A stretch of 64,000 bases of DNA from Stentor roeselii (lineage: Eukaryota; Ciliophora; Heterotrichea; Heterotrichida; Stentoridae): the NCBI GenBank assembly GCA_006503475.1, contig RSEH01000201.1:1-64000 (forward strand), read 5' to 3'. Shown here piece by piece: positions 1 through 39,884 of the stretch. Below the pieces are notes generated by a model. The model searched no databases. It was not told the origin of the DNA and saw only the letters and a program-made list of their open reading frames with translations. Made by a program: the position numbers and the translations under genes. Every line of letters starts with the position of its first letter. Position 1 is the stretch's first letter.

Positions 1-1848
1 AAAATCGAAAATAAAATCACAATAAATCAAATTAAACAAAGAATAAAATTTATAAAGTCATCAATATCTAAACTAGACCAAAACACTCAAAACCTTACTA
101 CAGATATTAAAAACTATTCTCTTATATCTTCCATAAAACTTAACAAAATTTACCGAAATTCTAATATAAATATTCTATTCGATTATACAAAATACTCTCA
201 AATTAGAAAAATGATAACAATCATATATAACCACCACACTATAAAAGAAATAACGAACTTCAAATATCTAAAAAATCAGGTTCATAACAGTTTTTATCTC
301 TTTTTAAAATCTCATATGTCTTCAGTTACTTCATTTTCGATAGAAGAAAATCTGAAAATATTAGTGGCTGGAGACGTATGTGGAAGTGTCCGAATTTTTA
401 ATCTTGAGAGTTTAAATCAAACTGCTTGTTTCACTTGTTATCAATCAATTGTCAAAACAATTCATATCAAATCAACTCTATGCATAACGGGCTCAATCGA
501 TTCAACAATCTGTCTATTCAACTTGAAAACAAAAAAACTCAAAAAATGCTTCAAAACTTGTAAAGGGCCAATCTACTCTTTAATGCTTTCGAAAAACTCT
601 CAATACTTTTTGAGTGGATCGGGTCAAGGATATATCGAAATTTGGAGCATTTCGAAGAACACTTTGGCATTTCAAATTAATGCAAATTCTTCGGTTATTT
701 TTGCAAGATTCATCCAAAATGATCTTTTTTTAATGTGCTCAACCTATGAAGGATATATTCAAAAGTTCAAACTTCCACACAAGTTTCCTCTTATCATAAA
801 ACAATATAAAAAACAACTATGGTGTAGCAATTTTATAGAAGAAACTGATACTTTATTGACTGGGTATACAGATGGATTTATTCAAGTTTTAAAACAATTT
901 CAACTCTTCAAAACTTTCAAAGCCCATACGCAACAAATAAATTCAATAGACTACTGCTTAAAAACTGCAAAATTCGTTTCGGGATCTGATGATCAAACTG
1001 TAAAAGTATGGAGTTTATCCTCGTTTTCACTTCTAACAGTCCTTCATCATTTCAAACAAACTATATTGTGTGTAAAACTACTGGAAAATAAAGTCTATTC
1101 AAGTTCTAATTCTACAGAAATTGAATACTTCGATCTTTCATCTCAAAAAGTAATAAAAACAACCAACCAGAAAATATTTAATTCATATATTTTATCAGTT
1201 TCAATCAAACTGAAGTTAATTGTTTATGGACTTGAAAGAGTTTACTTATACAGTCTTATTTCGAACTCTAATATTTGTTGCAGGTCATTTGAAAGTGAAG
1301 TTTGTTATTTAGTATTTGCAAGTTCATTTATTATGTGTGGAACATATCAAGGGTTTATTTATTGTGTTGATAGTGATTGTTTGGAAATAAGAAAGAAGTA
1401 TTTTTTTGGAGGTTTTGCAATTCGATTTGTAAGAACAAATTGGAAAGTGATGTGTTTTTCGAGTGAAAATAAATCAATTGTACAAGATTTAAGAAATTCA
1501 GAGATTTTATTGACTCACAATAGAACAATACTTGTTGGAAAGTTTAGAGAGAATAGTTTTGTTTTTGTGGATAATGTATTTGATGTGTTTGTTTCAAATA
1601 ACTTGAAAAGTATGAGAAAAATAAGTCATTTTTTCAGTTATCAATTATTTTGGTTGAGATCTTTTGATTATATAGTTATAAAAGATTTTTATTCAGGTTT
1701 TAGAATATTGAATACTCAAAGAAAAGAAAACGAGATTAGATTAGAAAGTTTGAAAGGATTAAAATACATGAATAAAAAAAGAGAGTTTAGATTGAGGAAA
1801 GGAGATTTGATTTTATCATCACTAAAATTTAGCAATTGTATTAACTAA
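1..1848 (+). CDS. WD40-repeat protein of the local finger-WD40 family, 5' end outside window
   Basis: The frame is open from base 1, and codons before the first in-window ATG (211) match the paralogue at 6007-7982, so the gene starts upstream of the window. At least 615 residues are present. The visible part has a basic coiled-like linker, then repeated WD40 blades; clear blade ends include residues around TVKVWSLSS and TICLFNLKT. The expected N-terminal Cys/His finger lies outside the window. The stop is TAA, followed after 17 nt by AATAAA. It faces its inverted paralogue across 4.2 kb. WD40 propellers are protein-binding scaffolds; no specific role can be read here. Confidence 0.85.
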   Translation, partial: KIENKITINQIKQRIKFIKSSISKLDQNTQNLTTDIKNYSLISSIKLNKIYRNSNINILFDYTKYSQIRKMITIIYNHHTIKEITNFKYLKNQVHNSFYLFLKSHMSSVTSFSIEENLKILVAGDVCGSVRIFNLESLNQTACFTCYQSIVKTIHIKSTLCITGSIDSTICLFNLKTKKLKKCFKTCKGPIYSLMLSKNSQYFLSGSGQGYIEIWSISKNTLAFQINANSSVIFARFIQNDLFLMCSTYEGYIQKFKLPHKFPLIIKQYKKQLWCSNFIEETDTLLTGYTDGFIQVLKQFQLFKTFKAHTQQINSIDYCLKTAKFVSGSDDQTVKVWSLSSFSLLTVLHHFKQTILCVKLLENKVYSSSNSTEIEYFDLSSQKVIKTTNQKIFNSYILSVSIKLKLIVYGLERVYLYSLISNSNICCRSFESEVCYLVFASSFIMCGTYQGFIYCVDSDCLEIRKKYFFGGFAIRFVRTNWKVMCFSSENKSIVQDLRNSEILLTHNRTILVGKFRENSFVFVDNVFDVFVSNNLKSMRKISHFFSYQLFWLRSFDYIVIKDFYSGFRILNTQRKENEIRLESLKGLKYMNKKREFRLRKGDLILSSLKFSNCIN

Positions 1849-6230: not shown

Positions 6231-7982
6231 TTATTTTCTTATAGTTTTCAAGTTATTTGAAACAAACACATCCAATGCATCATCTACAAATACAAAACTA
6301 TTTTCTCTAAACTTTCCAACAACTATTTTTCTATTGTGAGTCAATAAAATCTCTGAATTTCTTAAATTTTGTATAATTGATTTATTTTCACTCGAAAAAC
6401 ACATCACTTTCCAATTTGTTCTTACAAAGAGAATTGGAAAAGATCCAAAAAAATACTTCTTTCTTATTTCCAAACAACCACTATCAACACAATAAATAAA
6501 CCCTTTTAATGTTCCACACATAATCAATGAACTTGCAAAAACTAAATAACAAACCTCACTTTCAAATGACCTGCAACAAATATGAGAGTTCGAAATAAGA
6601 CTGTATAAGTAAACTCTTTCATATCCATAAACAATCAACTTCAGTTTGATTGAAATTGATAAAATCATTGGATTGAATAATCTCTGGTTGGTTGTTTTTA
6701 TTACTTTTTGAGATGAAAGATCGAAACATTCGATTTGGTTCAATAGACCACTTGAATAGACTTTATTTTTTAGAAGTTTTACACACATAATAATTTGTTT
6801 GAAATGATCAAATACTGTTAGAAGTGAAAATGAGAATAAACTCCAAACTTTTACAGTTCGATCATGAGATCCCGAAACGAATTTTGCAGTTTTTAAGCAG
6901 GAGTCTATTGAGTTTATTTGTTGTGAATGGGCTTTGAAAGTTTTGAAGAGTTGAAATTGTTTTAAAACTTGAATAAATCCATCTTCATGCCCAGTCAATA
7001 AAATATCAGTTTCTTCTATAAGACTGCTACAATTTAGATGTTTTTTAAATTGTTTTATGATAAGAAGAGATTTGTTTGCAAGTTTGAACTTTTGAATATA
7101 TCCATTTAAGGTTGAGCAGATTAAAAGCTGATCATTTTGGATGAATCTTGCAAATACAACAGAAGAAGTTGCATTAATTTGAAATGCCAAAGTATTTTTC
7201 AAAATGCTCCAAATTTCGATAAAACCTTGTTCAGATCCACTCAAAAAGTATTGAGATTTTACCGAAAGCATCAAAGACAAGATTGGCCCTTTACAAGTTT
7301 TGAAGGATTTTTGGAGTTTTTTTGTTTTCAAATTGAAAAGACAGATAGTTGAATCGTAGGAACCAGTTATGCATAGAATTGATTTGATATCAATTGCACG
7401 GATAATTGATTGATGACAATTGAAAGATGCAATTTGAGTTAAACTCTCAAGACTAAAAATTCGGACACTTCCAATTTCGCTTCCGGCCACTAATATTTTG
7501 AGATTTTCTTCTATCGAAAATGAAGAAATCATAGACATATGAGATTTTAAAAAGAGATCAAAACTGTTATGAGTATAATTTTTTATATATTTGAAGTTTG
7601 TTATTTCTTTGATAGTTTGGCGATTATATATGATTGTAATAAATTTTCTGAGTTGAGAGTATTTTGTATAATCAAATAGAGTATTTATATTCGAATTTCT
7701 GTAAGTTTTGTAAAGTTTTATGGAATTTATAAGAGAATGGTTTTTAATATCTGCAGTAAGGTTTTGAGTGTTTTGGTCTAGTTTAGATATTGATGACTTT
7801 ATAAATTTTATTCTTTGTTTAATTTGATTTATTGTGATTTTATTTTCGATTTTCTTTGCTTTGATTGTTTTGATTATATGATTTGATGGTTTGAGTAGAT
7901 GCTCTCTTAATTCTGAATGATCTATTGTGTTTGATTGACAAACAGATATGAAGACTTTTTTTTCCGACGTCACCCTTGACAT
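6231..7982 (-). CDS. Finger-WD40 family protein, C-terminally shortened
   Basis: A 583-residue protein starting at MSRVTSEKK; an in-frame ATG 60 bases upstream is less likely, because the ATAATAAATATG leader at this start is shared with the paralogues at 13395 and 20069. The N-terminal finger is incomplete: position 13 is Ser where paralogues have Cys, while Cys15, His28 and His35 remain. WD40 blades follow, including TVKVWSLFS and TICLFNLKT. A one-base loss in an A run near the end removes the last ~72 residues present in the 1-1848 paralogue. It is convergent with that gene. It may still be expressed as a shorter protein or be an early pseudogene. Confidence 0.75.
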   Translation of the reverse strand: MSRVTSEKKVFISVCQSNTIDHSELREHLLKPSNHIIKTIKAKKIENKITINQIKQRIKFIKSSISKLDQNTQNLTADIKNHSLINSIKLYKTYRNSNINTLFDYTKYSQLRKFITIIYNRQTIKEITNFKYIKNYTHNSFDLFLKSHMSMISSFSIEENLKILVAGSEIGSVRIFSLESLTQIASFNCHQSIIRAIDIKSILCITGSYDSTICLFNLKTKKLQKSFKTCKGPILSLMLSVKSQYFLSGSEQGFIEIWSILKNTLAFQINATSSVVFARFIQNDQLLICSTLNGYIQKFKLANKSLLIIKQFKKHLNCSSLIEETDILLTGHEDGFIQVLKQFQLFKTFKAHSQQINSIDSCLKTAKFVSGSHDRTVKVWSLFSFSLLTVFDHFKQIIMCVKLLKNKVYSSGLLNQIECFDLSSQKVIKTTNQRLFNPMILSISIKLKLIVYGYERVYLYSLISNSHICCRSFESEVCYLVFASSLIMCGTLKGFIYCVDSGCLEIRKKYFFGSFPILFVRTNWKVMCFSSENKSIIQNLRNSEILLTHNRKIVVGKFRENSFVFVDDALDVFVSNNLKTIRK

Positions 7983-9059
7983 ATTTATTATAATGGAATA
8001 TTTATAAATTTTATACAAAGTAGGGAAATCAAGCACTTTCAAGATGTTTTTCTTTACTTGAAAGCAAAATTATTGTAAATATTCAATATTTATGCTCTGT
8101 GGTTATCTAAGCTAATCTTTTTACTAATTTAAGCAAATTATATCGGTAGTAAATACTTTTTGATGGAGTCTTATTTTACAAATAAAAGAATCTTTTGATT
8201 ATAAGTTTTTCTCATTTTATGTACTTTATTATTTTCAAGCCTTTGGTAGATAGATAAATACAAGAGTGATACTAAAGAGCAAATATTATACTGAAGAAAT
8301 AACTAATCTTTGAGTTCTATTAAATTAATTGGAGTTTAAGTTGATCAATTTGTTTTAACTACTGTAAAATTACCAAATGTATATGTTTATATAATTACTC
8401 AAGTGATAAATTAAAGAATTTAAATCTAATAACTTGCTTACTTCTTTCATTCAGGACTAATCAATCTCAATTCGATGAGTTATAATAATCCAAACTTAAT
8501 ATCTCGTTTTATCACTAATTTCAACTATATTCACTAGGAAAATTCAAATTTTATTTGAAATCTATTGTTAGATTGTGTTTTTCAAGCTCTAAATACTCTT
8601 GAAATGATTTCTTTTCTTGTTAGGCATTAAAATTGACTTAAACACGAATCTTTATCTTTATGTTTCTGTTTTTATTCTAAGTTCTAGATTCCTGCAATTG
8701 AATACTTTTTTCCTTTTTGATTTTCAAGTTTCATGAAGTCTAAGTGTTGTTTGTTACTAATTTTTGGAATATTACTTCGAATAAGTTATTGCTGAAGACT
8801 TAAAAATCTGCACAGGTGAAAATCTTGAAGGAGTTTATGTATTTGAACCTCGATATGAAGATTTGGAAATATGAAAGTGTGTTTGATCAGTGAAGAATAA
8901 TTGATTTGAAGATTAAAAAATCATCAATAGCCAAACCTTATTAAGTACAATACACCCTTAAACTTGAATTCAAAGAGACTTCTTAGATTTTTAAAAAACT
9001 CATAATGAACAGGAAATTTTTAAATATTGAGTTATTTTGGATTTTATTAGCTTTAAATC
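7983..9059. other. AT-rich spacer upstream of WD40 gene
   Basis: Holds the leader of the minus-strand WD40 gene (ATTATAATAAATATG overlapping its start). Otherwise it is AT-rich sequence in which I see no gene or repeat. Confidence 0.5.
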
Positions 9060-13394: not shown

Positions 13395-15314
13395 TTATAA
13401 TAATATCATTCTATCATAGAGAGATGATAAAATCAAAGTACTCCTTTTCATATAAAAATCTCTTTTCTTTACATTCTTCACTACTTCTTTCAAATTATTC
13501 AATCTTTCATACTTTTCAGGTTCTTCTAAATTTATCAACAAAACTTTCGAACTCATTTCTTTAATCATAACATATTTCTTCGATTTGAACAAATATAAAT
13601 TATATCCAAGCTCAGTAAAATGTATCTTCCTGCATTTTTCAAAATTTTTGACAATATACAAACTAAAATCACTATCAATAAACACAAAACTTGATAATCC
13701 AAACTTTCCACTAAAAATTCTTTTATCATGACTCAAAAAACTTTTCATTGATTTCAAATCAACAAAACTTGTTTTAGATATAGTCGAATAAACAAAAACA
13801 TTCAAATCACTTGATGGTTCTATAAAACAAATTGGCAATCTTTCAAATAAATACCTTCTTTTTACCCTCAGAGAAGGACAATCTAAATACAAAATATCAC
13901 CCCTTACTAATCCACATACAATAATTGACTGAACAAAGCACAAACTACAAACTCTACCATTAAATGACTTTGAATTTACATATTTTAACGATTTTAAACT
14001 TACTAAACAAACTGATTCAAAACCATAAACAATCAAATTCAGTTCTATTGAAACATCTAAACAGAAATAGCTAGATAAACTTGTTTTGTTGATTATTCTA
14101 CGCGTCTCAAAACTCAACTTTTCTGTTTTCAAATTTCCCAAGTAAATCTCATTTTTGAACATTTCAACACAATATAATGGAGAATAAAAGTCTTTGAAGA
14201 CTTTCAAAAGTTTAAAAGTTTTTGAACTCCATACTTTTAAAGACATATCTAGAGAACAACTTGCAAAAGTGTTTGAGTGTTTACAAAAGCTGATTGAATT
14301 TACTTTAGAAGTATGAGCCCTTAAAGAATCAAATAAGCAAAGAGATTTTAAATTTATAAATTGAATCCATCCATCCAAATGTCCAGTCACCAGAACCTCA
14401 ATTTCTTCAGCTAGTTTACTTGAATGAACTTTTCCTCTAAGATTTGTTCGGGATAGAGACTTTGAACTGCTCAACTTTTGTATTTTTACATCAAAACAAG
14501 CAAAAATAAACTCTTGATTACTCATTGATACAAATCTTAGTGAAGAGTTGAAATGAATAAGAAAAACAAGTGATTTTTTGAAATAATTCCAAATTCGAAC
14601 AGTTTCATCATTCGACCCACTCACAAAAAGTCTTGAACTGTGTATCAATTTCAATGAACAAATAGAATCTTGATGTCCCTTGAAGACAGTCTTGAGTTTG
14701 TGTTTTTTTATATTCCACAAACATATTGATTGATCAAACGAGCTTGAAAGTCCATAAATTCCAGAAACATCAAGAGCACAAACAATAGCTCGATGGTAGT
14801 TTAAACACGCAACCTGCTCAATGTTTTGAGGATTGAACAGTCTCACTTTTCCATCTACTCCTCCACTCATTAAAATATGTTCTGACAGATGCAAAATGAA
14901 TTGATATCCGATTTTAGTTTTGAAAAAATAATTGTATTGAGTTTTAATTTGTTGCTTTTGATATTTGAAAATTGTTATTTCTTTGATGACAGGTCTTTGT
15001 AAAATTTGATGAATTTGAAGAGAAAGATGAAAGTAAGTTTTTTTATGAGAGGGTATTTTTAAAAATTTTTTAAAAGAACATTGAATCAAGTTTTTGATAA
15101 GGAAAGTGAAATCTGAGTCGAAATTAGATGATTTTATAAATTTATACCTTTGAAGAGCTTTTTTTTGATTTTTTTGTTTTTTTTGTTTTGTTTTAAGTAC
15201 TTTTATAAGATGAGTTGAGGGTTGTTTTAAGTGGATTGCGAGCTGCTGAGGTAAAATGAATTCTTTTTGGCAAGAGCACATGAATTTCTTTTTATCTGAC
15301 GTCAGATTTTGCAT
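13395..15314 (-). CDS. Finger-WD40 family protein (639 aa)
   Basis: The N-terminus has a complete small finger, Cys13-x-Cys15-x12-His28-x6-His35, followed by a Lys/Gln-rich linker and then WD40 blades from about residue 135 to 600. Good blade signatures are QSICLWNIKKH, ETVRIWNYFKK and MSLKVWSSKTF, with GHQDS before one of them. WD40 propellers bind partner proteins; the finger could add a zinc site, but neither partner nor location can be told. It is head-to-head with its close paralogue at 20069, 4.75 kb away. The start ATG sits in the shared leader TTATAATAAATATG. Confidence 0.88.
   Translation of the reverse strand: MQNLTSDKKKFMCSCQKEFILPQQLAIHLKQPSTHLIKVLKTKQKKQKNQKKALQRYKFIKSSNFDSDFTFLIKNLIQCSFKKFLKIPSHKKTYFHLSLQIHQILQRPVIKEITIFKYQKQQIKTQYNYFFKTKIGYQFILHLSEHILMSGGVDGKVRLFNPQNIEQVACLNYHRAIVCALDVSGIYGLSSSFDQSICLWNIKKHKLKTVFKGHQDSICSLKLIHSSRLFVSGSNDETVRIWNYFKKSLVFLIHFNSSLRFVSMSNQEFIFACFDVKIQKLSSSKSLSRTNLRGKVHSSKLAEEIEVLVTGHLDGWIQFINLKSLCLFDSLRAHTSKVNSISFCKHSNTFASCSLDMSLKVWSSKTFKLLKVFKDFYSPLYCVEMFKNEIYLGNLKTEKLSFETRRIINKTSLSSYFCLDVSIELNLIVYGFESVCLVSLKSLKYVNSKSFNGRVCSLCFVQSIIVCGLVRGDILYLDCPSLRVKRRYLFERLPICFIEPSSDLNVFVYSTISKTSFVDLKSMKSFLSHDKRIFSGKFGLSSFVFIDSDFSLYIVKNFEKCRKIHFTELGYNLYLFKSKKYVMIKEMSSKVLLINLEEPEKYERLNNLKEVVKNVKKRDFYMKRSTLILSSLYDRMILL
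15294..15307. promoter_or_regulatory. 14-bp perfect palindrome with TGACGTCA core (gene start)
   Basis: ATCTGACGTCAGAT is self-complementary and overlaps codons 3-7 of the WD40 gene. The core equals the classical CRE half-site pair. The same palindrome is at 20076-20089. Since it is coding, function as a binding site is only a possibility. Confidence 0.25.
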
Positions 15315-20068: not shown

Positions 20069-21961
20069 ATGCAAAATCTGACGTCAGATAAAAAGAAATT
20101 CAAGTGCTCTTGCCAAAAAGAATTCATTTTACCTCAGCAGCTCGCAACCCACTTAAAACAACCTTCAACTCATCTTATAAAAGTACTTAAAACAAAACAA
20201 AAAAATCAAAAAAAAGCTCTTCAAAGGTGCAATTTTATAAAATCCTCTAATATCGACTCAGATTTCACTTTCCTTATCAAAAACTTGATTCAATGTTCTT
20301 TTAAAAAAATTTTAAAAATAACCTCTCATAAACAAACTTACCTTCAGCTTTTTCTTCAAATTCATCAAATTTTAAAAAAACCTGTCATCAAAGAAATAAC
20401 AATTTTCAAATATCAAAAACAACAAATTAAAACTCAATACAATTATTTTTTCAAAACTAAAATCGGAACTCAATTGATTTTGCATCTGTCAGAACATATT
20501 TTAATTAGTGGAGGAGTAGATGGAAAAGTGCGACTGTTCAATCCTCAAAACATTGAGCAGGTTGCGTGTTTAAACTACCATCGAGCTGCTGTTTGTGCTC
20601 TTGATGTTTCTGGAATTTATGGACTTTCAGGATCGCTTGATCAATCAATATGTTTGTGGAATATAAAAAAACACAAACTCAAAACTGTCTTCAAGGGACA
20701 TCGAAATGCTATTTGTTCATTGAAATTGATACACAGTTCAAGACTTTTTGTGAGTGGGTCGGATGATCAAACTCTTCGAATTTGGAATTATTTCAAAAAA
20801 TCACTTGTTTTTCTTATTCATTTCAACTCTCCACTAAGATTTGTATCAATGAGTAATCAAGAGTTTATTTTTGCTTGTTTTGATGGAAAAATACAAAAGT
20901 TGAGCAGTTCAAAGTCTCTATCCCGAACAAATCTTAGAGGAAAAGTTCATTCAAGTAAACTAGCTGAAGAAATTGAGGTTCTGGTGACTGGACATTTGGA
21001 TGGATGGATTCAATTTATAAATTTAAAATCTCTTTGCTTATTTGATTCTTTAAGGGCTCATACTTCTATTGTAACTTCAATCAGCTTTTGTAAACACTCA
21101 AAAACTTTTGCGAGTTGTTCTGACGATAAGTCTTTAAAAGTATGGAGTTCAAAAGATTTTAAACTTTTGAAAGTCTTCGAAGACTTTGATTATCCATTAT
21201 ATTGTGTTGAAATGTTCAAAAATGAGATTTACTTGGGAAATTTGAAAACAGAAAAGTTGAGTCTTGAGACGCGTAAAACAATCAACAAAACAAGTTTATC
21301 AAGCTATTTTTTTTTATGTGTTTCAATAGAACTGAATTTTATTGTTTATGGTTTTGAATCAGTTTGTTTAGTAAGTTTAAAATCGTTGAAATATGTAAAT
21401 TCAAAGTCATTTAATTGTAGAGTTTGTAGTTTGTTGTTTTTTCAGTCGATGATTGTATGTGGATTAGAAAGAGGTGATATTTTGTATTTAGATTGTCCTT
21501 CTCTGAGGGTAAAAAGAAGGTATTTATTTGAAAGAGTGGGAATTTGTTTTATAGAACCATCAAGTGATTTGAATGTTCTGGTTTATTCAAGTTTAAATAA
21601 AGCAAGTTTTGTTGATTTGAGATCAATGAAAAGTTTTTTGAGTCATGATAAAAGAATTGTGAGTGGAAAGTTTGGATTATCAAGTTTTGTGTTCATTGAT
21701 AGTGATTATAGTTTTTATATTGTCAAAAACTTTGAAAATTGCAGGAAGATATGTTTTAATGAGTTTGGAGATAATTTATATTTGTTTAAATCGAAGAAAT
21801 ATGTTATGATTAAAGAAATAACTTCGATAGTTTTGTTGATAAATTTAGAAGAACCTGAAAAGTATGAAAGATTGAATAATTTGAAAGAAGTAGTGAAGAA
21901 TGTAAACAAAAGAGATTTTTATATGAAAAGGAGTACTTTGATTTTATCATCTCTTAATTAA
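20069..21961 (+). CDS. Finger-WD40 family protein (630 aa)
   Basis: Closest relative of the gene at 13395, mirrored around a 4.75-kb spacer. It keeps the finger Cys13/Cys15/His28/His35 and the WD40 blades QSICLWNIKKH, QTLRIWNYFKK and KSLKVWSSKDF. It lacks three linker residues and the last few C-terminal residues of its paralogue because its reading frame ends earlier (LILSSLN, then TAA). Most codon differences I noticed are conservative, which suggests that both copies are under selection. A scaffold role is likely from the fold; the partner is unknown. Confidence 0.88.
   Translation: MQNLTSDKKKFKCSCQKEFILPQQLATHLKQPSTHLIKVLKTKQKNQKKALQRCNFIKSSNIDSDFTFLIKNLIQCSFKKILKITSHKQTYLQLFLQIHQILKKPVIKEITIFKYQKQQIKTQYNYFFKTKIGTQLILHLSEHILISGGVDGKVRLFNPQNIEQVACLNYHRAAVCALDVSGIYGLSGSLDQSICLWNIKKHKLKTVFKGHRNAICSLKLIHSSRLFVSGSDDQTLRIWNYFKKSLVFLIHFNSPLRFVSMSNQEFIFACFDGKIQKLSSSKSLSRTNLRGKVHSSKLAEEIEVLVTGHLDGWIQFINLKSLCLFDSLRAHTSIVTSISFCKHSKTFASCSDDKSLKVWSSKDFKLLKVFEDFDYPLYCVEMFKNEIYLGNLKTEKLSLETRKTINKTSLSSYFFLCVSIELNFIVYGFESVCLVSLKSLKYVNSKSFNCRVCSLLFFQSMIVCGLERGDILYLDCPSLRVKRRYLFERVGICFIEPSSDLNVLVYSSLNKASFVDLRSMKSFLSHDKRIVSGKFGLSSFVFIDSDYSFYIVKNFENCRKICFNEFGDNLYLFKSKKYVMIKEITSIVLLINLEEPEKYERLNNLKEVVKNVNKRDFYMKRSTLILSSLN
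20076..20089. promoter_or_regulatory. 14-bp perfect palindrome with TGACGTCA core (second copy)
   Basis: Same self-complementary ATCTGACGTCAGAT at codons 3-7 as in the paralogue at 13395-15314. A related GGTGACGTCGG lies just after the start of the gene at 6231-7982. Confidence 0.25.
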
Positions 21962-34166: not shown

Positions 34167-35568
34167 ATGTCCTGCCAGATTCCAGATTGTAAAGGGAATA
34201 TCAAATTCAGGTGTTTGACTTGCAAATATAAGCAGTTACTTTGTAAAGATCATAATGATTCCCATAGGGATCAAGGTCACGAAACAAAAGAAATCGCAGA
34301 TGATCTTGTCAAAATCTTGAATGAGAAAAAACTTCAGATTCGATCAGATAATATTCATAATAAAATCAAAGAAGAAGGATTAAAATTGATCGGTCTTGTT
34401 AAAAATATCCTGATTCCTTCTATCAAATCTTCAACAGATGCTCAAGTGATAGAAAATCTTGAAAATTTTTATAATCACGATACAAGAAATCTTTATTTGC
34501 AAGAAACAATTGAAAATTTAACGAAAGACTTAGAAATATGCTTCAATAATACTCTTGAAAAGTTAGACTCTGAAGTTGTGCAAAATTCAAGGAAATTAAA
34601 AGATGTAAAAATCAAAGAACTCACTGAGAAGCAGGATAAGATTGAAAAAGAATTACAAGAAAAAGATATAAAAATTAAACAACATACTCAAGAGATTCAT
34701 AAGAAAGATGAAGATTTTGAACTTATAATAAATGAATCTAAAAAACAAATCAATAGTTATATGGTGAAATCTCAAGAATCCGAAAGAGAATCTGATAAAT
34801 ATAAAATAAATATCAAAGTTTTGGAAAAAGAAATTCAAGAAAGAGAAAGTAAGATTGGTATTCTAACAACTAAAAATGAGAAGCTACAAAATGAAATTAA
34901 TATCCAGATTCAAAATTCAGGAAATGATGATAAGAATCACTTAAAATATTTTTCAATGTATCAACAGAGTGAAACCGAGATTATTCGTCTAACAAAAAAA
35001 AATCTAGAACTAGAAAATTCACTTACCAATGAAATTCAAAAGTCAGAAGAAAATTACCAGAATTACTTAAAACAAATTTCAATTAATCAAAAAAATACAT
35101 CAAAACTTATCAAAATATATGAAGAAAAGAATAAAGAAGTAAACAATTTACTTAAAACTTCTTCAATAAATTTAAATAGCAACTGTAAGGTTTATCCAGT
35201 TTTTAATAGTCTAGATATTGAAAAAAAAAGAAAATTTGTTAGAGAAAACTGGAGCTTTATCACTGTCTATGGTCAAGAATACAAAATGACAAATAATTGC
35301 TCTTATTTGTTTATATGTATTGATCATTCAGGTAGAAATAAAGCAGATTGTAGAAATTATTCAAGGGGGTAAATTTATTGAAGAAGGTACAAGATAATAA
35401 GATTCAGCAGCTTTAAAATATAATAACCGCAAGTTTCATTTAGACAGTCTGAATTATTCAGGGAATTGTATTCAACATGCAGTAGAGATCTGGAACCTTC
35501 AAAGCAAGAAGTTGGAGGAGTTCTACCTTGATGACACTGAATGCATATTAGCAGATTGGGAAAGTTAA
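34167..35568 (+). CDS. B-box-like zinc finger/coiled-coil protein, three 15-16-nt introns
   Basis: Exons: 34167-35316, 35332-35349, 35366-35386, 35402-35568; spliced product 451 aa ending in TAA. Without splicing the frame stops at 35372. The N-terminus has a B-box-like zinc pattern (Cys3, Cys8, Cys16, Cys19, Cys25, His28, His33, His38). Residues about 60-330 are a long Lys/Glu-rich coiled coil. The C-terminal 75 residues form a shared domain with its paralogue: YPVFNSLDIE, ENWSFITVYGQ, then across the introns ADWGKFIEEDSAAL and HAVEIWNLQ. B-box and coiled-coil proteins usually act as scaffolds; no RING is present, so no E3 activity is claimed. The splice model rests on conservation of all three introns in the copy at 38870. 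Confidence 0.82.
35317..35401 (+). other. Cluster of three tiny introns
   Basis: Introns: 35317-35331 GTATTGATCATTCAG (15 nt), 35350-35365 GTAGAAATTATTCAAG (16 nt), 35387-35401 GTACAAGATAATAAG (15 nt). All start GTA, end AG and have A at position 10, the likely branch point. The exons between them are only 18 and 21 nt long. Removal joins two conserved halves in frame. Confidence 0.85.
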
Positions 35569-38869: not shown

Positions 38870-39884
38870 ATGTCTTGCCAGTTTGATAATTGTGAAGGGA
38901 ATATCGAATTCAAGTGCTTGAACTGTGAAAATAATCGGTTCATCTGTTATGAACATGCAGAATCCCATCGGGTTAATAGTCATCAAATTGAACAAATCAC
39001 AGAAGATCATATAAAAATAATGATTGATGAAATTCATAACAAAATCAAAGAAGAAGCATTACAATTGATTATAGATATTAAAGAAATCCTCATACCTTCT
39101 ATAACATATTCAGAAGATCTTTTAAATATTCAAGTTGTAAAAAATCTTGAAAATTTCTATAAAAACGAGATAAGAAATAATTATTTGAAAGAAAAAATTC
39201 AAATTTTCAAGAAAGATTTAAAGATATGCTTCAATAATAATCTCCAAAATTTACACTCTGAGGTTGAAAAAAGTCGAGAAAAAGATATAAAAATTAATGA
39301 GACTGAAGCAAAAGTTCTGATAAAAGATGAAAATATTAAAAAACTTTGCGATCAAATCGATTACCAGAATTACTTTACAGCCATTTCAATTAATCAAGAA
39401 AATATATCAAAACTTATTCAAATCTATGAAGAAAAGAATAAAGAAATAAACAATTTACTTCAAAGACCTTTAATAAATTTAAATAGCAAATGTAAGGTTT
39501 ATCCAGTTTTTAATAGTCTAGATATTGAAACAAAAAGAAAATTTGTTAGAGAAAACTGGAGCTTTATCACTGTCTATGGTCAAAAATACAAAATGACAAA
39601 TAATTGCTCTTATTTATTTATATGTATTGATTATTAAGGTAGAAATGAAGCAGATTGTATATTTTATTCAAGGGAGTAAATTTATTGAAGAAGGTACAAG
39701 ATAATAAGATTCACCAGCTTTAAACAATGATAACCGTAAGTCTTATTTAGAAAGTTTGAATCATATAGAGAAATGTATACACCATGCAGTAGAGATCTGG
39801 AACCTTCAAACCAAAAAATTAGAGAAATTTTATCTCAATCATAATGAATGCAACTTTTCATATTGGGAAAGTAATAAAATTTAG
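38870..39884 (+). CDS. B-box-like zinc finger/coiled-coil protein, shorter paralogue
   Basis: Exons: 38870-39623, 39639-39656, 39673-39693, 39709-39884; spliced 322 aa ending in TAG. Unspliced, the frame would stop inside the first intron at 39637. The N-terminus has the same zinc pattern (Cys3, Cys8, Cys16, Cys19, Cys25, His28, His33, His38). The coiled coil is about 130 residues shorter than in the copy at 34167. The C-terminal domain is nearly identical: ENWSFITVYGQ, then ADWSKFIEEDSPAL and HAVEIWNLQTKKLEKFYL across the introns. The 3' half is more alike in DNA than the 5' half, which may reflect gene conversion or stronger constraint. Confidence 0.82.
39624..39708 (+). other. Cluster of three tiny introns (paralogue)
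   Basis: Introns: 39624-39638 GTATTGATTATTAAG (15), 39657-39672 GTATATTTTATTCAAG (16), 39694-39708 GTACAAGATAATAAG (15). Positions and phases equal those in the gene at 34167 and the third is identical. A is at position 10 in all. Confidence 0.85.

Follow-up and report, generated by a model that had tools for sequence, protein, structure and literature searches.

Genes 1 and 2, both on the forward strand of a 64-kb stretch of Stentor roeselii DNA (contig RSEH01000201.1, positions 1 to 64,000; hereafter the window), are members of a family of about fifty genes with predicted tandem arrays of tiny introns. The reading we favor, with a probability of about 0.85, is that each array is a run of 14-, 15- and 16-nt spliceosomal introns, mostly in phase 1, separated by exons of a single codon (or of 0, 6, or 9 nt), within a TRIM-like gene family. 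Comparison among paralogues supports the array layout, the restoration of the reading frame, the joining of one-codon exons to their neighbors, and the presence of A at position 10 (A10) in most units. If the splicing is real, we know of no denser intron arrangement than these arrays, in which a variable stretch of protein would be spelled one amino acid at a time.

A preliminary description of the window had proposed three introns of 15, 16, and 15 nt in each of the two genes, separated by micro-exons of 18 and 21 nt. The three GT..AG pieces of gene 1 are present as described (units 1, 3, and 5 in Table 1), a matching 15/16/15 layout begins at 39624 in gene 2 (39624–39708), and all six pieces carry A10. 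Cutting out these pieces leaves open frames of 451 aa (gene 1) and 322 aa (gene 2), or 452 and 323 codons including the stop, and the C-termini of the two spliced products match. The proposal of 15/16-nt spliced introns of the heterotrich type is likewise well supported by comparison across the large paralogous family. The spacings of the two micro-exons are exact, but each conceals another GT..AG 15-mer: in gene 1 the 18-nt "exon" splits into a 15-nt unit and ATT, and within the 21-nt "exon" a unit of 15 nt lies between GGG and AAG (units 2 and 4 in both genes). Three further units lie downstream in each gene. Thus, the three introns appear to be spliced, but a model with exactly three per gene is probably incomplete, as the paralogues point to more; and the strain on splicing to which the preliminary description drew attention would be more extreme than was supposed. 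Chains of at least three units of 14–16 nt, with an A as either the tenth base or the sixth from the end and gaps of 0, 3, or 6 nt, occur three times on the plus strand of the window and nowhere on its minus strand, and there were none in 20 dinucleotide shuffles or in the reversed window; such chains are not explained by base composition. Scans of the 64-kb window for Rfam families and tRNAs gave no matches. Four open reading frames with WD40 repeats (545–639 aa) lie in the first third of the window (Table 1).

Table 1. Positions of genes, candidate introns, one-codon exons, and other features (window coordinates, or locus handles for paralogues elsewhere in the genome).
Feature	Position	Strand	Description
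Gene 1	34167–35568	+	B-box-like Cys/His N-terminus, coiled coil, conserved domain, intron array, C-terminal exon
Gene 1 unit 1	35317–35331	+	15 nt, A10; intron 1 of the preliminary description; counterpart in paralogues
Gene 1 unit 2	35332–35346	+	15 nt, A10; abuts unit 1; open in frame; removal predicted from paralogues
Gene 1 one-codon exon ATT	35347–35349	+	Commonest spacer; usual first micro-exon in the family
Gene 1 unit 3	35350–35365	+	16 nt, A10; intron 2 of the preliminary description; frame requires removal
Gene 1 one-codon exon GGG	35366–35368	+	Between units 3 and 4
Gene 1 unit 4	35369–35383	+	15 nt, A at 9 instead of 10; least certain candidate
Gene 1 one-codon exon AAG	35384–35386	+	Between units 4 and 5
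Gene 1 unit 5	35387–35401	+	15 nt, A10; intron 3 of the preliminary description; in-frame TAA if retained
Gene 1 unit 6	35429–35443	+	15 nt, GC..AG (GT..AG in gene 2); predicted removal
Gene 1 unit 7	35447–35461	+	15 nt, A10; predicted removal
Gene 1 unit 8	35468–35482	+	15 nt, A10; predicted removal
Gene 2 (paralogue)	38870–39884	+	297 aa with eight units removed, 322 aa with three
Gene 2 array	39624–39789	+	Eight units
Gene 2 units 1–4	39624–39638, 39639–39653, 39657–39672, 39676–39690	+	Unit 3 of 16 nt; unit 4 without A10
Gene 2 units 5–8	39694–39708, 39736–39750, 39754–39768, 39775–39789	+	
14-nt pre-domain intron	L007, L012, L013, L024 (also in locus L021), L076, L077		L076 on the minus strand
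14-nt array units	L012, L016, L013, L067 and others		
WD40-repeat ORF	211–1848	+	
WD40-repeat ORF	6231–8042	-	
WD40-repeat ORF	13395–15314	-	
WD40-repeat ORF	20069–21961	+	

The family was delimited by searches of the genome that holds the window (44.4 Mb in 522 contigs). With the spliced C-terminus as query there were 16 matches beyond genes 1 and 2, the weakest perhaps due to chance, and 12 of them stop at query residues 50–53, the position of intron 1, because in the paralogues the array fills the stretch from ..DGKYLF to VWNLETK. This segment is packed with head-to-tail 15/16-nt GT..AG units whose spacers measure 3 nt or nothing. A 44-aa query from the upstream domain gave at least 60 matches at E up to 1, some of the weakest of which may be chance; the family size obtained from this query is a lower bound. 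For the arrays themselves, 46 N-anchors yielded 42 loci with a C-anchor and 41 distinct arrays, and ten more were added later (51 loci); all array counts come from loci related by descent, and hence are not independent.

GT-to-AG distances in the 41 arrays peak at 15 nt (239 against 57.7 in shuffles) and 16 nt (169 against 55.8); at 14 nt the raw counts show no excess (43 against 56.7). Further enriched distances, at 20, 33–35, and 39 nt, are as expected from sums across neighboring units. AG-to-GT gaps peak at 3 nt (291 against 58.9), 6 nt (90 against 57.2), and 0 nt (87 against 48.7), with depletion at 1, 2, 4, and 5 nt; 9-nt spacers also occur. The spacers are therefore codon multiples while the units are not, the opposite of a coding repeat. 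Across the genome, the 16-3-16 pattern was found 132 times (reversed pattern: 3), the 15-3-15 pattern 280 times (reversed: 14; some of these matches lie outside the family), and the back-to-back 15|16 pattern 48 times (reversed: 23). Most parsed arrays contain 5–17 units, a few counts being inflated by over-run of the parse, and their parsed density is exemplified by 12 introns in 216 nt in locus L009 and 16 in 292 nt in locus L089.

Removal of the units restores the reading frame. The parse is blind to frame, and success means that the N- and C-anchors are joined in one frame. Before any removal, 14 of the 41 arrays are in frame, all of them interrupted by stops; taking out the 15- and 16-nt units puts 25 in frame (21 open), and taking out 14-nt units as well raises this to 36, of which 33 are open. 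Substituting an extra unit of 10–13 or 17–23 nt for that of 14 nt gives only 25–27 arrays in frame and 20–22 open, so that among these lengths 14 nt alone rescues the frame. Removal of 14- and 16-mers alone also brings 36 arrays into frame but leaves just five open, and therefore the 15-nt units must go too; 73 of 227 such units would bring in a stop if singly retained. When the preferences for A3 and A10 were dropped from the parse, 33 of the 41 arrays were still in frame and 31 open. The exceptions are five out-of-frame arrays and stops inside three of the 36 that are in frame; in a later parse, early stops appeared in L019, L021, L069, L080, L084, and L088, and several arrays over-ran downstream.

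In several paralogues a second phase-1 intron, 15 nt long, lies just 5' of the conserved domain, and in at least six others this intron has 14 nt (Table 1); lengths of 11, 17, and 20 nt, frame-equivalent to 14, accounted for 0, 0, and 1 cases. Based on frame and position, 14-nt introns would thus be needed at two independent places in these genes. Outside the arrays, stop-containing GT..AG pieces whose removal extends a frame by at least 40 aa were sought in 119 frames from the retrieved loci and the window: 21 pieces of 14–16 nt were found (14 of 15 nt, six of 14 nt, and one of 16 nt), and every other length from 10 to 30 nt gave 0–2 cases, except 24 nt with five. Among the 15-nt pieces are some whose frames are unrelated to the domain, namely those in L010 and L065, both with A10, and one in the window that lacks A10, so that introns of this kind would not be confined to the family. 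In the window alone, removing a 14–17-nt piece lengthened none of 32 frames of at least 120 codons by 50 aa or more, and in three CDPK-type kinases (L097–L099, with stops reported within the matches) the alignment contained no GT..AG jump of 12–18 nt.

Inclusion of the one-codon exons in the message is best supported by the codons formed where they meet. Each junction codon takes its first base from the end of one 3-nt exon and its other two from the start of the following one, the phase being set by the anchors. None of 192 junction codons between consecutive exons is a stop, whereas 8.5 were expected from a global shuffle and 6.0 from shuffling within arrays, and none of 2000 shuffles was as low; the other two offsets contain 7 stops in 247 and 21 in 192. 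TAA (5.35 expected) and TAG (2.95) account for the depletion; TGA (0.35) is too rare to be informative. The tiny exons are thus probably kept, joined in order to their neighbors, and translated. Since every exon is one codon in the same phase, any skip would preserve the frame, and the exons might serve as alternative cassettes that give each gene many isoforms; however, junctions that skip to exon i+2, i+3, i+4, or i+5 carry stops at 7/137, 7/99, 3/69, and 2/48, not below shuffles, in contrast to the stop-free consecutive junctions. Exon skipping does not appear to be a selected function, and combinatorial splicing of this kind is very unlikely.

Two other accounts do without one-codon exons. 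The whole array could be one intron of ordinary length (about 90–480 nt; 1.1 kb in L027) within which the one-codon pieces go untranslated, and the frame results would be identical whenever the spacers are codon multiples. Such an intron would not predict the absence of stops in one phase against 8.5 expected (with 7 and 21 at the other offsets), spacers of mostly 0, 3, 6, or 9 nt, or, in 32 of 36 arrays, a first pair of micro-exons that encodes an aromatic second residue; moreover, the introns annotated in S. coeruleus are of 15–16 nt only (PMC9505925). We regard it as highly improbable. Least probable of all is that the arrays are coding tandem repeats of 18-nt hexapeptide units, decayed in many copies. 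Units of 15 + 3 nt are indeed spaced at 18 nt, L016 has a long open stretch, and some 15-3-15 matches elsewhere resemble 33-nt repeats; yet the frame-breaking 19-nt spacing is common, no unspliced array is both in frame and open, dN/dS is about 0.5 in the framework on both sides, and GT..AG and A10 are kept.

A different matter is how many of the candidate units are introns in genes 1 and 2 themselves, for which we consider eight apiece probable on comparative grounds, in place of three. That the two genes contain exactly three introns (15, 16, and 15 nt) with 18- and 21-nt exons, the other 15-mers being coding, would be compatible with arrays in the rest of the family, where paralogues may hold more introns. 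In both genes every unit other than 1, 3, and 5 (that is, 2, 4, 6, 7, and 8) is open in frame and so could be retained, A10 is missing from unit 4, and in gene 1 the donor of unit 6 is GC. The start of the arrays is informative here: two back-to-back units are found in 38 of 41 arrays, and the second must be removed in 23 of the 38 (14 are 14-mers, eight are 15-mers with an in-frame stop, and one is a 16-mer); in the remaining 15, genes 1 and 2 among them, it is an open 15-mer, as the three-intron model would have it. Against that model, Y is the first residue of the spliced loop in 35 of 36 arrays, and the second is Y, W, or F in 32 of the 36 (genes 1 and 2 included); the two genes show this Y-[YWF] start, common in the family, only when unit 2 is also removed. 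These residue counts refer to the 36 of 51 arrays that match the loop pattern given below, the other 15 being excluded for stops, an over-running parse, or no match. In addition, GT, A10, and AG are all present in units 2, 7, and 8, and unit 8 of gene 1 occupies the position of the last unit of paralogous arrays, directly 5' of the WN-motif exon. We therefore judge exactly three introns to be unlikely, though worth keeping in mind. With units 1–5 spliced, the predicted peptide of gene 1 contains LFIYWEDSAALK, and with all eight removed its product would be 426 aa.

How such arrays might be spliced is suggested by the position of the A. In a parse that ignores this base, A10 is found in 97, 90, and 88% of 14-, 15-, and 16-nt units, respectively; 16-nt units have A10 in 88% and A11 in 34%, as positions read from DNA, in which the branch point itself is not visible. 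A10 is shared by units of all three lengths, which leads us to propose that the 5' splice site and the branch point are a fixed number of nucleotides apart. Splicing would proceed by intron definition, each unit being recognized regardless of exon length: the spliceosome would measure the fixed distance from the 5' splice site to a branch-point A10 and may accept an AG whose G lies 4, 5, or 6 nt past it. The introns would probably be removed successively from 5' to 3', with back-to-back AG|GT pairs as ordinary sequential splices, although order, efficiency, and lariats are predictions of the scheme, and the product would be a variable loop of mostly 3–13 residues flanked by conserved segments. 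If so, a spliceosome could work without any exon definition, by a fixed ruler from 5' splice site to branch point, and the arrays would be natural substrates for splicing tests.

The loci with a start in hand encode a Cys/His-rich, B-box-like N-terminus, a coiled coil, a conserved domain, the array, and a C-terminal exon that often ends like ..KDRYPECIYEKWGY. The spliced loop follows the pattern ..DGKYLF-x-Y-[YWF]-loop-[LMFV]-x-[VI]-W-N, with 3–13 further residues after Y-[YWF], or 23 in one array. TRIM proteins have a B-box-like Cys/His N-terminus, a coiled coil, and a variable C-terminal domain. The family resembles them in its Cys/His N-terminus, coiled coil, and variable C-terminal loop, but differs in that no Pfam model reached its cut-off in seven proteins scanned (three fully spliced paralogues, the two window genes with the three introns of the preliminary description removed, and two proteins cut before the array); the best scores were 12 and 9.4 bits for ANCHR-like_BBOX, against a cut-off of 27. 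The B-box was not recognized by profile, and the likeness lies in Cys/His spacing alone; a WD40 or β-propeller likeness of DGKYLF..VWNLETKK was seen by eye, with no profile match in the same seven proteins. An AlphaFold2 model of the N-terminal 160 aa of gene 1, built from an alignment with gene 2, had a mean pLDDT of 53 and was set aside. From architecture and variability, one might guess at a TRIM-like recognition role.

The arrays may have grown, at least in part, by tandem duplication of an intron together with one codon, which fits the codons sometimes shared between neighboring units with near-identical introns (CTA three times in L083, and TTG in L027). In 22 pairs of neighboring 16-nt introns that differ at 1 of 11 free positions, the codons differ at 1.45 of 3 bases. 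A fixed-register comparison at the array end covered 24 arrays, with 174 of 276 pairs kept and 102 excluded for unequal unit lengths; the last one-codon exon was set against the adjoining C-terminal exon and the final three introns. The 23 pairs that are closest at synonymous sites differ there by 13%, with differences of 12% in introns and at 58% of bases in the last one-codon exon, and over all 174 pairs the values are 36, 27, and 59%. Introns change at roughly the synonymous rate or a little more slowly, and the last one-codon exon is saturated already in the closest pairs, which fits selection for change; this result rests on three bases per array, in pairs that are not independent. The usual pattern would thus be inverted, close paralogues varying more in the last one-codon exon than in the adjoining introns. 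Over whole arrays, exon bases differ more than intron bases in 12 of 14 pairs (barely so in L024/L021); L063/L071 show no exon excess (exon 1/39, intron 5/101), and genes 1 and 2 are about equal (exon 11/60, intron 12/71), in an alignment whose register can shift.

In the framework, dN/dS over 49 pairs is 0.58 (B), 0.50 (N), and 0.48 (C); the framework exons look to be under purifying selection and the genes look functional. Diversifying selection on the framework was rejected, as dN/dS does not exceed 1 in any of these parts. An earlier indication that introns are more conserved than synonymous sites (2.6 against 24%) was dropped, as the pairs had been picked by intron similarity; once pairs are binned by synonymous or by residue difference, the divergence of introns is similar to that of synonymous codons or a little below it. 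Gene conversion across the array was also set aside, there being no fall in synonymous differences beside it (0.30 in codons 1–8). A tentative and still doubtful possibility is that the array is a system of codon-by-codon diversity, in which duplication, loss, or exchange of units on a repeat-rich scaffold of tiny introns would add or alter exactly one codon with the frame intact, varying the recognition loops of a large TRIM-like family in a unicellular organism.

The units have precedents in other ciliates. In S. coeruleus, annotated introns are AU-rich, GT..AG, and of 15–16 nt only, with the branch A at position 10 in 15-nt introns and mostly at 11 in those of 16 nt (PMC9505925, section 2.1), and the paper reports some genes with more than eight introns, not all of which its authors were sure are spliced. 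The array units are likewise GT..AG, with 15- and 16-nt classes dominant and A10 in 90% of 15-nt units; unlike those introns, as far as this source describes them, they have A10 rather than A11 at 16 nt, appear to need a 14-nt class, and stand in tandem with one codon or no exon between them. The A of 16-nt introns may therefore be placed differently than in S. coeruleus, either across this species or in these arrays. Blepharisma stoltei has 15 and 16 bp introns, the length class of the arrays, and reads UGA as tryptophan (PMC9942806); the accessible part of that paper mentions no arrays, and in contrast to B. stoltei in-frame TGA is nearly absent here (1 among 85 kinase matches), which fits Stentor rather than Blepharisma. 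The shortest intron compared in the discussion of PMC12316389, as far as accessible, is that of 15 nt in Stentor, and 14-nt introns, if true, would lie one nucleotide below this published minimum.

Exons of a few nucleotides can be spliced in plants, where micro-exons go down to 1 nt (PMC8831610); the cases in the accessible text are single or paired, unlike the runs of ten or more one-codon exons between 14–16-nt introns predicted here. Stwintrons are nested introns and introners insert copies in many genes (PMC8469720, PMC9024468, PMC12403724, PMC9860276). The arrays resemble them, so far as these sources go, in having adjacent introns and similar introns that multiply, but differ in that a single gene segment holds numerous introns, set head to tail at codon-regular intervals; near-identical introns are shared between some paralogues, in tandem within one family. 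The literature covered, which included few subscription papers, describes no such arrays under tandem introns or microexons, single-codon exons, shortest introns, or Stentor B-box. Thus, tiny introns and isolated micro-exons are already known, and tandem arrays of them appear to be new within that literature. Gene finders that demand longer exons would miss such genes.

Several arrays and repeats are atypical. L027 (1276–2335) contains about 50 units in 1.1 kb by a loose parse and 37 by a strict one, with 43 of 49 gaps of 3 nt; its spliced frame is open over the greater part of the array, with stops close to the 3' end. L088 (C219, minus strand) has 27 units of another type, rich in ACTAAC or CTAAGCAG, and stops remain as parsed. 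In L086 (C23, about 1430–1900), some 20 units with A-rich introns form chains of 6, 5, 5, and 4, and the C-terminal exon is not recognizable, so that the locus is possibly decayed or a different gene. Tandem 33-nt repeats that match the 15-3-15 pattern lie outside the family in C127 (30–227 and 229938–230135, both contig ends), C227 (817–1370), and C8 (151494–151592), and are perhaps coding or subtelomeric. One unit in L084 starts with AT, as judged by eye. Units starting with GC were seen once in gene 1 (unit 6) and once in L087, where a parse that allows GC gives an open frame.
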